A stretch of 20,363 nt of DNA, from positions 1-20,363 of IMG/VR virus record IMGVR_UViG_3300020457_000137, one strand, 5' to 3'. This DNA is from a virus. Below the pieces are notes generated by a model. That model was not told the DNA's origin, did no database searches, and was given only the letters and a program-made list of their open reading frames with translations. Shown here piece by piece: positions 554 through 7,752 of the stretch. A program made the translations under genes and the position numbers. The number at the start of each line of letters is the position of its first letter. The first letter of the stretch is position 1.

Positions 554-1276
554 ATGGCAGGTGTCAGGCCAGAAAAGTTAACTGTATCTAAGATAAAGGC
601 GAACCTACTTAATGTAGCACAATCATCTTTATATAGATTAACTTTGACTATTCCTCAAGCAGTGAGGGATAGGTTATCACTAAGCTCAGTAGATTATGAT
701 AATATAAATTTACTATGCAGTGAAGCAACTCTTCCAGGTTCTAGTTTGACCACTCATGATGTTACCAATGATTATCATGGTGTCACTGAGAAGATGGCAT
801 ATAGAAGGATGTATGATGAAACAGTTGGGTTAACTTTTTATGTTGATAGAAATTATAAAGTCATTGAATTGCTAGAAGGGTGGATGGACTATATTACAGG
901 CATTGATAATAAAAGAATATATAAAGATCCCTATGCCAGCTATAGGATGTCTTATCCTACAACATATAAAAGAAACATATTTTTAACCAAGTTTGAAAAG
1001 GATAATTTTGTTAGAGACTTTAGTACCACTAGAGGTGGATCTGATTCTACATCCAGAACTGTTCTTGATTATACTTTTGTACAGGCATTTCCTTTATCCT
1101 TGACTGCTATACCAGTATCCTATGAGGACAGTCAAGTTTTAAAATGTAATGTATCATTTAATTTTATTAGATATGTCATGGAAAGGAAGAGGTCTCTTGT
1201 TCTTGAAGACTTTAGAACAGAACAATTTAGTTCTCCTCAAAATATAATAGTAAATAGACAAGTTGAATTAGTCTAA
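554..1276 (+). CDS. Tail-tube-fold baseplate protein (gp48/gp54/gp19-type)
   Basis: This 240-aa protein resembles proteins of marine T4-like phages related to the gp19 tail tube family. Recognisable parts are an N-terminal RPEKLTV segment, LCSEATLPGSS (about residues 53-63), a YHGVTEKMAYRRMYDE block (about 73-88) with TFYVDRNYKVIELLEGW, and a C-terminal YTFVQAFPLSLTAIPVSYE followed by a beta strand. The 'ATLPG...Y.G....A..R.YD...TFY.D' pattern is typical of gp19-like tube and tube-initiator folds. T4 gp48 and gp54 (the tube cap and initiator on the baseplate) are longer but share this fold, and their genes neighbour hub genes, so a baseplate-proximal tube initiator is the best inference. It opens the hub operon. 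No clear promoter was found in the short upstream gap. Confidence 0.65.
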   Translation: MAGVRPEKLTVSKIKANLLNVAQSSLYRLTLTIPQAVRDRLSLSSVDYDNINLLCSEATLPGSSLTTHDVTNDYHGVTEKMAYRRMYDETVGLTFYVDRNYKVIELLEGWMDYITGIDNKRIYKDPYASYRMSYPTTYKRNIFLTKFEKDNFVRDFSTTRGGSDSTSRTVLDYTFVQAFPLSLTAIPVSYEDSQVLKCNVSFNFIRYVMERKRSLVLEDFRTEQFSSPQNIIVNRQVELV

Positions 1277-1301: not shown

Positions 1302-2021
1302 ATGCCATTACCTACCATTGTTACGCCAAGTTATGAACTTGAGTTGCCATCCACAGGAAAGAAAATTAAGTACAGACCTTTCTTAGTTAAAGAAGAAAAA
1401 CTTTTAGTCTTAGCTTTAGAGACAGAAGATACCAAGCAGATTTCTACTGCTATCAAAACAGTATTAAAAAATTGTATTCAAACCAGAGGGGTGAAGGTAG
1501 AAAATCTTCCCACTTTTGATATTGAATATCTTTTCCTTAATATTAGAGGTAAGTCTGTAGGTGAGGAGGTTGAAGTAAACTTAGTCGCTCCTGATGATGA
1601 GGTGACTCAAGTTCCTGTGACCATTAGTTTGGATGATATTGAAATTAAAAAGAGTGAGGAGCATACTAATAAAGTTAAGTTAGATGATTCTCTTGTTATG
1701 GAAATGAAGTATCCTTCATTAGATCAATTTATTAAAAGTAATTTTGATTTTACTGAAGAGGTGAGCATGGATCAATCATTTGATTTGATTGCATCTTGTA
1801 TTGATAAAATTTACAATGAAGAAGAAGTATGGTCTACTGCTGATTGCACCAAGAAAGAAGTAAAAGAATTTTTAGAACAGATGAATAGTATGCAGTTTAA
1901 GGAGATTGAAAAATTCTTTGAGACAATGCCTAAGTTATCTCATAGTGTGACCTTCACTAATCCTAAGACTCAGGTTGAAAGCACAGTTGTTTTGGAAGGG
2001 TTATCGTCTTTTTTCGCTTAG
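1302..2021 (+). CDS. gp26: Baseplate hub protein gp26 (T4_baseplate family); probable frameshifted tail chaperone
   Basis: This 239-aa protein is a member of the T4 gp26 baseplate hub family (T4 gp26 is 208 aa). The N-terminal part shows the family signature: YELELPSTGKKIKYRPFLVKEEKLL, then a helical segment leading to DIEYLFLNIRGKSVGE (about residues 70-85), a common motif of this family. The C-terminal half is acidic and helical, ending with LSHSVTFTNPKTQVESTVVLEGL. The last codons are TCT TTT TTC GCT TAG. These contain a correctly phased T TTT TTC slippery heptamer at 2009-2015, and a -1 shift enters the next small ORF. Its position just before the tape measure genes matches that of tail assembly chaperones in other tailed phages. 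The gp26 family assignment is firm; the chaperone role is inference. Confidence 0.85.
   Translation: MPLPTIVTPSYELELPSTGKKIKYRPFLVKEEKLLVLALETEDTKQISTAIKTVLKNCIQTRGVKVENLPTFDIEYLFLNIRGKSVGEEVEVNLVAPDDEVTQVPVTISLDDIEIKKSEEHTNKVKLDDSLVMEMKYPSLDQFIKSNFDFTEEVSMDQSFDLIASCIDKIYNEEEVWSTADCTKKEVKEFLEQMNSMQFKEIEKFFETMPKLSHSVTFTNPKTQVESTVVLEGLSSFFA
1994..2015 (+). promoter_or_regulatory. Putative programmed -1 ribosomal frameshift site (T TTT TTC)
   Basis: In the gp26 reading frame, bases 2009-2015 read T TTT TTC, an X XXY YYZ heptamer in the right phase. After a -1 shift the ribosome reads CGC TTA GGC and then the ATG of the downstream 58-codon ORF, with no stop in between. The predicted fusion is 238 + 3 + 58 = 299 aa. 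A purine-rich GGAAGGG at 1994-2000 lies 8 bases upstream, close to where internal Shine-Dalgarno elements stimulate -1 shifting in E. coli dnaX. No convincing stem-loop is visible downstream, so stimulation is uncertain. P2 gene E uses the similar T TTT TTG. Confidence 0.6.
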
Positions 2022-2023
2022 GC

Positions 2024-2200
2024 ATGGTGCATATGGATTTAGAGAGTTATTATAAAATTAATTTCGCTCTATTACAGTACCATAAATATTCATTAACAGA
2101 AGTTGAAAACTTAATCCCTTGGGAGAGAGACATTTACATTGGTATGTTGAAACAACATCTTGAGGATGAAAAACTCAAGCAACAACAAGCGAATGCCTAG
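2024..2200 (+). CDS. Small ORF downstream of gp26; probable frameshift extension (chaperone T-like domain)
   Basis: This 58-codon ORF has two possible starts, ATG 2024 and ATG 2033. It lies in the -1 frame relative to gp26, two bases after the gp26 stop. The protein is helical, with YYKINFALLQYHKYSLTEVE, then IPWERDIYI, and a Gln/Lys-rich C-terminus. The hydrophobic helix followed by W-E-R-D-I-Y resembles the short second domains of tail assembly chaperones and small hub-assembly proteins that T4-like phage annotations sometimes call gp51; I am not certain of that name. No good Shine-Dalgarno lies 5-10 bases before either ATG, which favours expression by frameshift or by coupling. It overlaps the next gene by 8 bases if that gene starts at 2193. 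Confidence 0.65.
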   Translation: MVHMDLESYYKINFALLQYHKYSLTEVENLIPWERDIYIGMLKQHLEDEKLKQQQANA

Positions 2201-4286
2201 TAGCAAAAACCTAATACAATCTTTAAGAAGTGCTCATGACCCTCATTTTAAATTAGAGGGTAGAGTTGGTGGGCTTGAAAAAGGAGTAGGTATTCAAATT
2301 GCTCAGTTGCATAAGACAATGAGCAAATCCTTTGTGCTGCAAAGGAAAACTTTGGTGAGAGTTCTTGGTCTTGAGAAAAGAGTTGATGAGTTAGAAGCAA
2401 CAAGAGCAGCAGTAGAAGAGGCAGCAGAGCAAATAGAAGAAGAGATGGGTGATGAGATACCTGAAGAATTAGATGAATTGATAGATGATGTACGTGGACA
2501 GAAGGAAGAAAAGGAAGTAGGTGCAACTGCTACAAAAACAAAACCAAAGGCAAAAAAGAAACCAAAGGCAAAAAAGAAACCAAAAATAAAAGCTAAGAAG
2601 AAAAAAATAAAAGGTAAAGATCTTGGTTTTAAATCTAGGGTGATGGGTGAGAATGAACAGGGAGATTATTTAAGTCCAGAGGAGAGAAAGAGACAATTTA
2701 AATTAACTAAACTTCTTCCCCCATCTAATGGTGTAAGTCCTGAAGATGTTAAACCAGATACTCAAGCAGAGATGGGATCTGATGAAGGTAAAAGGGATAG
2801 GATTGTTCAGTTCTTAAATGTAGATGTTAAAGATAAACTTGATGATATTAATCAAAGTGCCACAGAAATTAAAGATGTATTGGTAACTCAAGGAGATCTT
2901 GCTGATGATAGGGATGAATCGTTAAGACAGAGTATTCTTTCTGATAGAAAAAAACAGAGAGAGAATAAGTTAGAGAATAAGGATAAAACTTTAAAAGATA
3001 AGATGCTTGATACTGTGACTAAACCAGTAGGAAATTTTCTTAATAAGTTGATTAAGTTTGTAATGATGACTTTTGTTGGGTCAGTAATCAATAGGGTATT
3101 GAGTCTTCTTAAAGATCCTGCTCAATTTTTAGATCCAATTAAAAGATTTTTTAATTTAGTCATTGGTCTTGTTAATGCAGTGATGAAAGGATTGTGGAAT
3201 ATCACAGCAGGTCCTATGAATTTTATCATTGGTGGTATTAATAAAGGAGTGTCCTCTCTACTTGATGCTATCAATAAAGCAACTGGATTGTTAAAGATAC
3301 CTCCCATACCAACACCTGAAATCCCTCTTATTCCTGGTCCTCCTGAACATAAACCAATACCCCTATCTAAAACAGCACAAGCAAAGAATGAAGCAGTAGG
3401 AATGGCTGGTGGTGGAGTAGTTCCTGAAATGTCTAATAAACAGAAGATAATGCAGCAAACTGATTATGGTGAAGATGGTAGTATATCAATAAGACAATCT
3501 ACAGTAGAAGAAAGAAAAGAACAATATGCAAAGATGGGAATACCATCTATGGAACTTATGGATGGTTCAGTTATTCCAGATATTGGTAAGATGGGTGCTG
3601 AGAAAATACCTCAAGCGCTTCAAATGACAAGGGAAAATCTGATTGATCTTGGAGCATCACCTGATGGAGAAAGAATAGCCATGTTGGATGAACTCATAGC
3701 TTCACCTGATGTTCAACCTAAAGCCATACAAAATACTCTTAATAGACTTGTTCCAGGTTCACAAGAACAAGTGTTAGGTGATTTGGGTGATAGTATATCT
3801 TCACGTGCAAAGATGAAATTTGCTAGTGGTGGTTTAGTTCCTTATAGTAATCCATTTGTTCTTGGTACAGGACATAATGTTTTGAATATAGCTCCTGATA
3901 GTAATATAGGTTTTAATAAAGGGGGAAAAGTTCCTGGTCAAGGAAATACAGATACTGTTCCTGCTATGCTAACACCTGGTGAAATTGTCATGAGCAAAGG
4001 TGCTGTAGAAAAATTTGGTGCTGAAAATCTTCTAGAAATGAATAAAGCAGGTGGAGGAACTAATAAACCCACATTGATGAAATTTGCTGGTGGTGGAATG
4101 GTTCCTGGTATTGATCCTCCCAGTGGGAGAGGTAATAATGTAATTGTAATGGGTGGAGGAGGAAAAAAATCTCCTTCTACAGTGTCTGGTAGTGGTGCTG
4201 GACAAGTAATTCCTTCTTTCTCATCTACTAATCCTAATAATGTAACTATACCTGTGGTCAAATCACTGTATAATATAATGAGTTAA
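2193..4286 (+). CDS. Tape-measure-like tail protein A
   Basis: The protein is 697 aa from ATG 2193. The frame is open further upstream, and ATG 2166 or TTG 2160 are alternative starts. Order of parts: a helical N-terminus; an acidic coiled coil (LEKRVDELEATRAAVEEAAEQ); a Lys-rich tract with KPKAKK repeats and KKKKIKGKD; a charged helix; a hydrophobic stretch (LIKFVMMTFVGSVI, about residues 284-297); and a C-terminal half rich in Gly. The C-terminal half has three AGGG/ASGG-x-VP motifs and the segment GKVPGQGNTDTVPAMLTPGE with IVMSKGAVEKFG, which is widespread in phage tape measure proteins. A tape measure sets tail length and exits first on infection. The length is comparable to T4 gp29 (590 aa). 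The position after the chaperone-like pair supports the call. It shares its architecture with the next gene. Confidence 0.65.
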   Translation: MPSSKNLIQSLRSAHDPHFKLEGRVGGLEKGVGIQIAQLHKTMSKSFVLQRKTLVRVLGLEKRVDELEATRAAVEEAAEQIEEEMGDEIPEELDELIDDVRGQKEEKEVGATATKTKPKAKKKPKAKKKPKIKAKKKKIKGKDLGFKSRVMGENEQGDYLSPEERKRQFKLTKLLPPSNGVSPEDVKPDTQAEMGSDEGKRDRIVQFLNVDVKDKLDDINQSATEIKDVLVTQGDLADDRDESLRQSILSDRKKQRENKLENKDKTLKDKMLDTVTKPVGNFLNKLIKFVMMTFVGSVINRVLSLLKDPAQFLDPIKRFFNLVIGLVNAVMKGLWNITAGPMNFIIGGINKGVSSLLDAINKATGLLKIPPIPTPEIPLIPGPPEHKPIPLSKTAQAKNEAVGMAGGGVVPEMSNKQKIMQQTDYGEDGSISIRQSTVEERKEQYAKMGIPSMELMDGSVIPDIGKMGAEKIPQALQMTRENLIDLGASPDGERIAMLDELIASPDVQPKAIQNTLNRLVPGSQEQVLGDLGDSISSRAKMKFASGGLVPYSNPFVLGTGHNVLNIAPDSNIGFNKGGKVPGQGNTDTVPAMLTPGEIVMSKGAVEKFGAENLLEMNKAGGGTNKPTLMKFAGGGMVPGIDPPSGRGNNVIVMGGGGKKSPSTVSGSGAGQVIPSFSSTNPNNVTIPVVKSLYNIMS
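2541..2576 (+). repeat. Two perfect 18-bp direct repeats encoding KPKAKK
   Basis: The 18-base unit AAACCAAAGGCAAAAAAG occurs twice head to tail and is followed by a degenerate third copy from 2577. In frame it encodes a Lys/Pro/Ala-rich tract like histone H1 tails inside tape-measure-like protein A. The perfect DNA identity suggests recent slippage duplication. Confidence 0.85.
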
Positions 4287-4287
4287 C

Positions 4288-6105
4288 ATGCCAGCAATAA
4301 CAGGAACAGTATTAATGAATATGGGTAAGCAGTTGCTTAAGAATATGGCGAAGAAAACCGTCAAAGCAACTGCTAAGAAGGCTGTGAAATCTGTTGTCAA
4401 AAAGAAAAAGGTAAAGGGGAAGGATGTTGCTAAAAAAATGTTTGGTGGTGATGAGAGAGGAGGTGCTTTAGCTGTCATTCCTAAAGCAGAAATAGTTCCT
4501 AGTCCAAGTGGAGATCTTATTAAACCTAGTGAGACAGGTGGAGAGATAGTTAAAGTAAGTGGCACTGCTGCAAGAGAGTTGGGTCTCACTGACTTTATGG
4601 AGTCCTTGACTGGAGTTAGGGATAGTGTGAATGGTATTAAGAGTGCTATAAATGATAATAATAAAGATACTGTAGATAGGATTGAAGCACAAAGGATATT
4701 AAATAATGATCTTAAAAAGAAAGAAAGAGAAAAGAATTTAGAATCTAAGAAGGATGGTATAGGTAAGAAGTTATTATCACCAATCAAAGATCCAGCTGAG
4801 GATTTCTTAACAAGGATGGCTAAGTTTGCAGCCATGACTCTTCTTGGTTCTTTGATCGCTGCTCTGATGGGAGGAGCAAGAGATGTTATATTAGCATTCA
4901 GAATTGGTATTGAAGCTCTTAAGAAAGGATTACCTACTTTACTTAAAGGAGTTAAAGCACTTCAATCTGGTATAGCAAAATCATTCAAGTTGATACTGAA
5001 ACCATTTACATCTCTTGGGAAAGCAATTTTTGAAGGTTTTAAAACTATAGGAAGTAAACTTTTTGGTTGGGTTAGTAAGAGTATCAGTAATATAACCAAA
5101 GGAATTAAAAATTTTGGTAAGAATATAGCTCAGGCTGGTTCTAAAGCTCTTAAACCTGTCACTAGTTTTGTTGGTAATACAGTAACTAGAGGAAAAGATT
5201 TTGTAAAAAATACAGCAAGCAAAGTAAAAGGATTTGCAAAAAATACAGCAAGAAGGGCAGCAGTTGGAGCTAAAAGATTCATAGGAAGGGGAGCTAGAAA
5301 ATTTTTAAAGGGTGGAGGTAAGAAAGTAGGTTCTAAAATACTAAAGCATGGAATGAAGAGAGGGGCTAATCGTCTTATCATCAAATTCTTTGGTAAAGAA
5401 GCAGCTAAGACTTTGATGTCAATAGGAAAGACATTGGTGAAGGGAGCCAAGGCAATCAGGATACCAGTTATTGGTCCTCTATTGGTTGCCATCACCTCCA
5501 TGTTCTCAGGTGATCCAATAGGTAAGACATTATTTAAGACTGCTGGTGCTGCTATTGGTGGTGGATTAGGACTAGCATTGGGTCCTATAGGAATGATAGT
5601 TGGTGAGATAGCAGGAGAATTTGTAGGAGATGTTCTGCATGAAGGTTTTATGGGTAAGGATGGATTTAAAGGAGCAGCTAAGAAATTAAAAGATAAGTTT
5701 ATGCAGATAGTTGATGGAGGAAAGGCATTTACTAAATGGATTGGTAGTGGATTCTCTAGGTTCATAGAAAATTTTAAAGCAGAAAATAAAATCTTTGGAC
5801 AAACTAATTGGTTGGCTCTTCTTAATCCTATAAAGACTTTACCACTACTTGGCAAATCTTTCTTCCCACCAGCAGAGATGGCAGGAAGTAAACCTAATAC
5901 TGATGGACAAGATGTATCATCATCAGCATCTTATGAGGATGGTGGAGAGAGCACCACTGTGATTTTAAATGGTGGTGGTGGAGAATCACCTGCTCCCTCA
6001 TCAGCATCAAGTAAAAATAAAATTATCGTTTCACAACCTAGTAAACAAACAGTAGTAAATAGTCAATATGAAATGGTGTCTAACACAGTTCTCTATAAGG
6101 TATAA
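4288..6105 (+). CDS. Tape-measure-like tail protein B (paralogue-like, membrane-active segment)
   Basis: This 605-aa protein has a Lys/Ala-rich N-terminus (KKTVKATAKKAVKSVVKKKK), then VKGKDVAKKMFGGDERGG, a charged helix, and KLLSPIKDPAEDFLTRMAKFAAMTLLGSLIAALMGG (about residues 155-195). The middle is strongly basic and helical, with many Lys/Gly repeats. A glycine-zipper hydrophobic stretch follows at about residues 417-445 (AAIGGGLGLALGPIGMIVGE), able to span or insert in a membrane. The tail has VILNGGGGESPAPSS, then a beta-prone end. The parallel with the preceding protein (KKKKxKGKD, charged helix, hydrophobic helix, IVxGGGGxxSP C-terminus) suggests common ancestry. It could be a second tape measure, a tape-measure partner, or a protein ejected to form a channel in the inner membrane. 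It starts one base after the preceding stop. I cannot assign a T4 number. Confidence 0.55.
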   Translation: MPAITGTVLMNMGKQLLKNMAKKTVKATAKKAVKSVVKKKKVKGKDVAKKMFGGDERGGALAVIPKAEIVPSPSGDLIKPSETGGEIVKVSGTAARELGLTDFMESLTGVRDSVNGIKSAINDNNKDTVDRIEAQRILNNDLKKKEREKNLESKKDGIGKKLLSPIKDPAEDFLTRMAKFAAMTLLGSLIAALMGGARDVILAFRIGIEALKKGLPTLLKGVKALQSGIAKSFKLILKPFTSLGKAIFEGFKTIGSKLFGWVSKSISNITKGIKNFGKNIAQAGSKALKPVTSFVGNTVTRGKDFVKNTASKVKGFAKNTARRAAVGAKRFIGRGARKFLKGGGKKVGSKILKHGMKRGANRLIIKFFGKEAAKTLMSIGKTLVKGAKAIRIPVIGPLLVAITSMFSGDPIGKTLFKTAGAAIGGGLGLALGPIGMIVGEIAGEFVGDVLHEGFMGKDGFKGAAKKLKDKFMQIVDGGKAFTKWIGSGFSRFIENFKAENKIFGQTNWLALLNPIKTLPLLGKSFFPPAEMAGSKPNTDGQDVSSSASYEDGGESTTVILNGGGGESPAPSSASSKNKIIVSQPSKQTVVNSQYEMVSNTVLYKV

Positions 6106-6107
6106 TA

Positions 6108-7481
6108 ATGTCAAATAAATTATCCACACAACCAGGTAATATAAGGGAGTTTAAAATCTTTCAGGCAAAGGATGGTGGAACATCAATAGATGCCTCTGGT
6201 GTTGTGGTAGATATAAAATATTATGAGGATATATTATCAAATTCAGTTTCTTTAAGTGCAATTATTACTGAGAGTGGAGAGAGTGATAATGAAAAGATGG
6301 GAAACAAAGGGATCTTAAATGGTCTTCCAGTACGTGGGGGAGAACCTGCCACTATTGTCATAGAAGATAAAGATGGTCATAAATTATCATTTAAAAATGA
6401 TAGTAAGTTGTATGTGAATAGAATTAGGAATGTTATTCCTGGCACGCAGAAGGATGTATATAGTTTAGATTTTTCTTCTAGAGAGTTATTTGCTAATGAG
6501 CAATGTAGAGTGGTTAAAAGATATGATGGTAAGATATCAGATAGTATTAGGAAGATACTTACTGAAGCAACTTCAGCAGAGGCAGGAATAAAAACTAAGA
6601 AAGAAGTAAAAGTAGATGAGACTTTAATTAACTATAATTTTATAGGAAATGATAGAAAACCTTTTTATGTTTGCACTTGGTTGGCATCTAAATCAGTTCC
6701 AGCAGAGGCAGGTAAGTTAGGAGGGGCAGCAGGATATCTTTTTTATGAGACACATGATGGATTCAATTTTAGATCCATTGATGCCTTGTTCAAGCAAGAG
6801 AGTAAAGGTAATTATCTTTTTAGTAATACAGATGATAATCCAGATGAGTATGATGGTAAGATTATAACTTATGACATCAGTAGAAATGTTGATCTACAAA
6901 ATAATTTAACCATAGGAACTTATGCCAATAGAACTTTGTTCTTTGATTTTTATGCCATGAATTATAAGGTGAGAAATTTTAGTGTTGATGAGGCAGGTGC
7001 TTCTGATAGTAAGGAGGGTGGTAGTAAAGGGAAGATTGATACTTTAGGCAAAGATGATATTGATTCTGTTGCAGATGAATTTAGATTACCTGTATCTAGA
7101 TTAATGAATAGGGTTTTAGATGTAGGAACACTTCCCTCTGGTAAGAATATTGATGAGCAATTGGAGAAATGGAAAGAGAATCCAGACAATGCTACTTACG
7201 ATGCTACCAAAACTATGGTACAATCTTTAATGAGATACAATCAAATGTTCTCAATTAAAATAAATATTATGATAGCAGGAGATTTTAGTCTTCGTGCTGG
7301 TGATTTGATTCATTGTGAATTTCCTGAGTTGTCTGTTGATCCTAATACACAGGTCAATAAGAGAAGTGGGGGACTATATATGATATCAAGTCTCTGTCAT
7401 AATATCACTCCAAGAGAAACTTATACTAGTTTGACTCTTGTGAGAGATAGTTTTGGAAGAAAATCTTTTAAGAGGGATTAA
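6108..7481 (+). CDS. Baseplate hub protein, gp27-like
   Basis: This 457-aa protein has an N-terminal beta domain (IREFKIFQAKDGGTSIDASG, DIKYYEDILSNSVSLSAIITE), a second beta domain (SRELFANEQCRVVKRYDGKI), then FYVCTWLASKSVP and GGAAGYLFYETHDGFNFRSID at about residues 185-225. The C-terminus has IKINIMIAGDFSLRAGDLIHCEFPE and ends with SLTLVRDSFGRKS. The pattern of small beta-barrel domains with 'G.f.L..Gd.I....p' near the end is that of tail hub proteins such as T4 gp27 and the N-terminal half of VgrG, which form a trimeric adaptor above the spike. T4 gp27 is about 390 aa. The neighbouring gp5-like gene supports the assignment, since gp27 and gp5 form one complex. It starts two bases after the previous stop. 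Confidence 0.65.
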   Translation: MSNKLSTQPGNIREFKIFQAKDGGTSIDASGVVVDIKYYEDILSNSVSLSAIITESGESDNEKMGNKGILNGLPVRGGEPATIVIEDKDGHKLSFKNDSKLYVNRIRNVIPGTQKDVYSLDFSSRELFANEQCRVVKRYDGKISDSIRKILTEATSAEAGIKTKKEVKVDETLINYNFIGNDRKPFYVCTWLASKSVPAEAGKLGGAAGYLFYETHDGFNFRSIDALFKQESKGNYLFSNTDDNPDEYDGKIITYDISRNVDLQNNLTIGTYANRTLFFDFYAMNYKVRNFSVDEAGASDSKEGGSKGKIDTLGKDDIDSVADEFRLPVSRLMNRVLDVGTLPSGKNIDEQLEKWKENPDNATYDATKTMVQSLMRYNQMFSIKINIMIAGDFSLRAGDLIHCEFPELSVDPNTQVNKRSGGLYMISSLCHNITPRETYTSLTLVRDSFGRKSFKRD

Positions 7482-7485
7482 AATT

Positions 7486-7752
7486 ATGACCAATCCTAAA
7501 CACGATTTAGAACACGAAGTTTACCTTGACCCTAAGGATGGTAAGGAGCATATCAATCATGGTATGCATGAATATACCAAAGAAGATTTAGAAAATTCTC
7601 ATGCTTATTATGATGAGTATCATAAAGATGATGTAGTTGATCCTAATGATGCTAAAATTAATGATTATCATACAAGACATGAAGATAGTCATTTAGAAGT
7701 TTATTGTGATAATCATCCTGATGCAGATGAGTGTAAAGTATATGACGACTAA
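7486..7752 (+). CDS. Small His/Asp-rich protein between hub genes
   Basis: The protein is 88 aa from ATG 7486, preceded by GAGGG at a suitable distance; an in-frame ATG at 7453 would overlap the hub gene and is less likely. The composition is striking: 11 His, about 16 Asp and many Glu and Tyr, with only two Cys near the end (VYCDNHPDADEC). Recurring short motifs such as HEY, YHKDD and YHTRHEDSH suggest metal binding or a pH-sensitive acidic surface, but there is no recognisable zinc-finger or PAAR spacing. The stop overlaps the gp5-like start (TAATG), so the two are probably coupled. I do not recognise the family. A small accessory of the hub/spike or an assembly factor is possible from context only. 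Confidence 0.7.
   Translation: MTNPKHDLEHEVYLDPKDGKEHINHGMHEYTKEDLENSHAYYDEYHKDDVVDPNDAKINDYHTRHEDSHLEVYCDNHPDADECKVYDD

Follow-up and report, generated by a model that had tools for sequence, protein, structure and literature searches.

Gene 26 of a marine T4-like (cyanophage-type) phage is followed, immediately before the tape measure genes, by a small open reading frame (ORF) of 58 codons, and the locus raises the question of whether this ORF is a gene of its own or the C-terminal part of a longer gp26 made by −1 frameshifting, and of what the two products would do. Here, we analysed a window of 20,363 bp (the whole stretch of DNA under study) from virus record IMGVR_UViG_3300020457_000137, together with relatives of its gp26 locus. 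The features on which the argument depends are as follows, with the evidence for each in brackets.

554..1276, + strand: tail-tube-like gene, upstream neighbour, a baseplate-tube initiator in relatives (phrog_45 tail tube, E 6e-39; PF23849 Phage_TTP_2, E 9e-15)
1302..2021, + strand: gp26, 239 aa, candidate short form, TAC-N (PF12322 T4_baseplate, E 1e-74; phrog_150, E 2e-78; AlphaFold2 pLDDT 87)
1994..2000, + strand: GGAAGGG, Shine–Dalgarno-like, 8 nt 5' of the heptamer (sequence)
2009..2015, + strand: slippery heptamer T TTT TTC, in phase (sequence, relatives, codon controls)
2009..2200, + strand: −1 frame extension, predicted C-terminal part of the long form, TAC-NC (phrog_634, E 3e-26; phrog_150 positions 240-281, E 7e-5; −1 frame in relatives)
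2019..2021, + strand: gp26 0-frame stop TAG (sequence)
2024..2200, + strand: small ORF, 58 codons, 'gp51' in the annotation of relatives, not needed as a separate gene
2026..2039, + strand: site of a covarying 3' stem-loop, arms 2026-2030 and 2035-2039, degraded in the window (clade covariation)
2193..4286, + strand: first tape-measure-like ORF, its ATG overlapping the end of the −1 extension by 8 nt
4288..6105, + strand: second tape-measure-like ORF (phrog_167, E 5e-7)

The tape-measure-like ORFs stand in tandem (2193-4286 and 4288-6105), where T4 has one (gp29). Elsewhere in the window, a 99-aa ORF at 7453-7752 (+), between the hub and gp5-like lysozyme genes, carries a CP12 domain (PF02672, E 4.6e-7) and, judged from this match, is a Calvin-cycle-inhibitor-like auxiliary gene inside the baseplate operon. 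The gp4-like head closure protein at 74-517 (−) carries a TnsA-like endonuclease domain (PF08722, E 8e-25).

The slip site in the window and in its relatives

The gp26 3' end reads TCG TCT TTT TTC GCT TAG, with T TTT TTC in X XXY YYZ phase and a single sense codon, GCT, between the heptamer and the TAG. Read in the −1 frame (TTT TTT CGC TTA GGC ATG...), the sequence stays open up to the TAG at 2198-2200, and the fusion product would comprise 238 + 61 residues, 299 aa in all. The T TTT TTG of phage P2 is the same slip type. The first-pass annotation of this DNA had described the in-phase heptamer close to the gp26 stop, the 299-aa fusion of gp26 with the 58-codon ORF and the GGAAGGG element 8 bases upstream, and each of these is borne out at the positions listed above. 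It had also held that the small ORF lacks a good ribosome binding site, which proved correct: a 4-nt Shine–Dalgarno match was looked for upstream of the ATG at 2024 (GCTTAGGCATG) and none was found. As strong evidence for frameshifting, this absence was nonetheless rejected, because about half of the gp26 starts lack such a match too.

Relatives were drawn as gp26 loci from IMG/VR and from annotated phage genomes, yielding 205 loci, of which 119 were kept at <85% protein identity. An in-phase T TTT TTY, 0-1 codon from the stop, is present in 115 of these 119 non-redundant relatives (T TTT TTC in 113, T TTT TTT in two), counts that, through shared ancestry, do not represent independent events; in relatives with the heptamer, the partner frame is always −1. 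Phe-Phe pairs are encoded as T TTT TTC in only 8/178 cases in other long ORFs of the same loci and in 0/120 elsewhere in gp26. All 55 members of the window's clade have TTT at codon 237 and TTC at codon 238, most other Phe columns vary, and the mean synonymous difference over gp26 is 0.44 per codon. The base 5' of the slip codons is always T and, because the preceding codons vary (AGT, TCT, GAT, GCT, AAT, GGT and ACT), it must have been retained across several changes. The T TTT TTY site was found too in the Sinorhizobium phiN3, Pseudomonas pf16, Agrobacterium Atu_ph04 and Desulfovibrio 7757 phages, and is kept in Aeromonas CC2 and the large Vibrio phages. The comparison across relatives thus agrees with the proposed conservation of heptamer phase and −1 frame, the heptamer not being lost nor the small ORF moved, with few exceptions. 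At the level of sequence, the frameshift observation (heptamer, phase and open −1 frame) is confirmed as correct and beyond chance.

The exceptions are T4, whose partner has a gene of its own, one Ackermannviridae-type group, and one contig that shares 99% identity with HTVC008M and lacks the heptamer through what appears to be a frame error. The Ackermannviridae-type sequences read GTT TTT CGC TAATG (VAP7), GTT TTC ATC TGA (phiMAM1), CTT TTC AAG TAATG (D503) and CTT TTT CAA TAA (Kuja); all four retain the −1 partner and the T before TTY, the full heptamer being absent (its XXXY half is missing), and two of them, VAP7 and D503, have a TAATG stop-start overlap. This group may use either a single-tRNA slip or a stop-start restart.

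Coding in the extension and RNA elements around the heptamer

In 29 lineage representatives (S-RIM2, pelagiphage, Aeromonas CC2 and related phages), the first in-frame ATG lies 11-35 codons past the heptamer, and at least 20 codons past it in 28 of them. The residues before this ATG are still conserved in those lineages (for example, FFRIALLHxxLxxYYExNFAL), and can therefore come only from a shift or from a slipped transcript. Over the 15 codons before the first ATG in 28 lineages, stops occur in the −1 frame in 0/28 and in the +1 frame in 28/28; differences there are most frequent at codon position 3, with dN/dS ~0.3 and dS near saturation. The extension of the Desulfovibrio 7757 phage contains no Met at all. 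In 105 of 111 relatives, G is the first base of the last gp26 codon, the residue itself varying (mostly A or G, also V, E and D), as expected because the −1 frame must read Arg (CGN) there. Downstream of the heptamer, selection acts on the −1 frame as a coding extension of gp26. In the window's own clade, an ATG is found at extension codon 5 in 37/55 members and at codon 8 in 55/55, and separate initiation of the small ORF, besides the frameshift, is possible given these ATGs.

The RNA 3' of the heptamer is structured in most relatives. Relative to shuffles, the stability of 40-nt windows 3-9 nt 3' of the heptamer lies up to 7.6 SD beyond the gp26 background (mean, 111 relatives). In the window's clade, the stem GGUCC-AUAU-GGACC has double changes in four of its five pairs (31 cells, versus 4.5 in shuffles and at most 4 when slid), and the choice of GUC or AUC at the Val/Ile codon goes with the third base of the Asp codon, GAC or GAU (Fisher p 1e-6, ~11-13 parsimony changes). 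The P-SSM2-like clade, with an 11-bp stem that is 94% paired, is a second clade with covariation, and different strong stems occupy the same place in S-SSM7 (z −8.2), S-N03 (z −4.3), a pelagiphage relative (z −5.3) and P-HM1 (z −4.0). In the window itself, folding indicates that the 3' stem-loop present in most relatives is mostly lost (−3.1 kcal/mol, z +1.4), and the heptamer here must therefore work with little or no stem help; a 3' stem stimulates a −1 shift but is not obligatory for it. No Rfam family matched, and a longer, A/T-rich pairing downstream (i+j=76), seen in 43 sequences, sits in conserved coding sequence. Upstream, a Shine–Dalgarno match of at least 4 nt is present in 109/115 relatives, versus 21% of control windows, although Glu-Gly codons largely force it; GAG is preferred over GAA at this element (p 2e-15, ignoring relatedness). 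The Shine–Dalgarno-like element was likewise rejected as strong evidence, because the conserved Glu-Gly codons yield GAGG or AAGG anyway.

Protein identity, chaperone reading and alternatives

The window gp26 matches PF12322 with 251 bits (curated cut-off 24.5), and T4 gp51 matches the same family with 177.5 bits over its residues 1-201. The small ORF matches both phrog_634 ('baseplate hub assembly catalyst') and the C-terminal part (240-281) of phrog_150, the gp26 family, because T4 gp51 joins both parts. Aligned to a fusion HMM built from 109 conceptual frameshift products, T4 gp51 spans positions 24-283, straight across the slip point, whereas T4 gp26 covers 10-238 only; in T4, therefore, each form has a gene of its own. 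Its gp51, a gp26-like domain (1-201) followed by a small-ORF domain (~202-249), is a natural in-frame fusion like the predicted −1 product of the window, and its gp26 ends just after FF, like the window's short form. T4 differs in having two divergently oriented genes in place of one frameshifted gene, and in having lost the heptamer (TTC TTT). Aeromonas phage 31 and Acinetobacter phage 133 have the short and long forms as two genes, as in T4, and the tree fits one duplication on the T4-type branch, with a long gp51 branch and a root that is not fixed.

The AlphaFold2 models of T4-type gp51 and window gp26 (pLDDT 87 for each) have the order of most elements in common, three extra C-terminal helices distinguishing the gp51 model, which retrieves gp26 proteins by fold with E 4e-10. 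Among PDB structures, the gp26 model is matched best by fold to 2ob9, the tail assembly chaperone of HK97, whose two chains are among the first three matches, at an E of 1.7 that is not significant. No Pfam TAC family matched, and a solved relative, sought by sequence, was not found.

The gene order of the window runs from the tail-tube-like gene through gp26 and the small ORF to the two tape-measure-like ORFs, the hub gene and the gp5-like lysozyme gene, and P-SSM2 has its tail tube, chaperone and tape measure genes in the same order; both place the locus between tail tube and tape measure genes. Such an order is usual for tail assembly chaperones. Together with the protein comparisons, this points to a two-form tail assembly chaperone, with gp26 as the short form (TAC-N) and the −1 product as the long form (TAC-NC), a reading to which we assign a probability of about 0.9. 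Most ribosomes would stop at the TAG at 2019-2021 and release the short form, and a minority would slip −1 on T TTT TTC, aided in most relatives by the stem-loop 3' of it and, perhaps, by the purine-rich element upstream, and read into the small ORF to give the 299-aa long form. By analogy with lambda gpG and gpGT, the tape measure protein would be coated by the short form, and tube or hub subunits would be recruited through the helical extension at the C terminus. The first-pass proposal that gp26 and the small ORF are a chaperone pair draws support from synteny and from T4 gp51 as a natural fusion of both parts; its further suggestion of a chaperone role for gp26 stands but is not new, as T4 gp26 and gp51 are already listed as hub assembly chaperones, gp51 'of unknown function' (PMC3004832, Table 2).

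The ATG of the tape measure gene lies, in most lineages, across or just past the 3' end of the extension (commonest offsets −5, −8, +2 and −11), and therefore the shift may set tape measure translation by stop-start coupling; Shine–Dalgarno matches at the tape measure starts are weak. We suggest, tentatively and against the odds as we judge them, that the fast-changing covarying stem that each lineage has as its own, 3' of an invariant T TTT TTY, tunes the short:long ratio, and that the shift may also set tape measure translation.

Two accounts of the locus dispense with ribosomal slippage. Were gp26 and an independently started gp51-like protein two separate genes, and the heptamer a by-product of a conserved Phe-Phe, the ATG that the window's clade has at extension codon 5 or 8 could serve as a start, and GenBank records do annotate two CDS; however, 29 lineages offer no ATG for the first 11-35 codons although the residues are conserved, the Desulfovibrio phage extension is devoid of Met, FF elsewhere is rarely T TTT TTC, and T4, with its partner as a separate gene, keeps FF but not the heptamer spelling. 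We consider this account highly improbable, and give slightly less credence still to transcriptional slippage at the T6 run as the source of the long form. The run is present in nearly all lineages and one added T would give the −1 frame, but the TTC that shortens it is kept by selection in 113/115 relatives even though TTT is the commoner Phe codon (69%), the downstream RNA stem, near the usual frameshift spacing, covaries, and the exceptional lineages have T runs of only 4-5.

A third account accepts the frameshift and differs on function, the products being hub assembly factors that act on gp5/gp27 and not tape measure chaperones of the G/GT type. It would suit the classing of T4 gp26 and gp51 with the hub (PMC3004832), as well as the lack of a significant fold match to a known tail assembly chaperone or of any Pfam TAC match. 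Against it, the locus lies between tail-tube-like and tape-measure genes and has a short/long architecture, both as in G/GT, and the tape measure of T4, gp29, is counted among the hub components (PMC3004832), so that the hub-factor and tape-measure-chaperone readings overlap. We regard an exclusive hub role as unlikely, though less so than either account without ribosomal slippage, and retain the two-form tail assembly chaperone as the preferred reading.

Comparison with known systems

Vladimirov, Gautam and Davidson reportedly described, in 2022, the frameshift for several groups of T4-like phages and, for T4 itself, genes 26 and 51 as separate. As cited in PMC12846349, their study (Virology 2022; 566:9-15) concerns poly-T slippery signals in T4-like TAC-N. 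So far as that citation conveys, these TACs belong to the same gene family and the core claim made here does not differ from theirs; the core frameshift is thus already known. The covarying 3' stem-loop may be additional to the 2022 description, which may or may not extend to the Ackermannviridae-type exceptions and to the lineages that lack an early ATG.

In P-SSM2 and others, the small ORF is annotated as gp51 or baseplate hub assembly catalyst, and in the GenBank records of ACG-2014d, S-WAM1 and Aeromonas CC2 the −1 extension is left wholly unannotated. The present reading would provide an annotation fix for hundreds of marine T4-like genomes, in which 'gp51' is usually a separate gene or omitted. 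It also supports T4 gp26 and gp51, long called hub assembly proteins, as the short and long forms of one chaperone, and the relatives, among them some in which the slip site has been lost naturally, offer comparative material with which to test what sets the short:long ratio.

The lambda tape measure protein is bound by both gpG and gpGT, the T part of the latter attaching to the tail subunit (PMC5009743). Lambda gpG/gpGT and P2 E/E+E' have a −1 shift near the end of the short form and act with the tape measure protein, as proposed here, and the same review states that T4 lacks the chaperone frameshift (PMC5009743). The window's family differs from the lambda and P2 chaperones in having no detectable homology to Pfam TAC families and a short form of 239 aa. 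In the TAC frameshift of phage Adele and the Vandenendeviridae/Andersonviridae, the annotated downstream 'gene' is, as here, the −1 extension behind a poly-T motif (PMC12846349); the Adele motif, GTTTTT, differs from that of the window and is closer to the Ackermannviridae-type exception VAP7.
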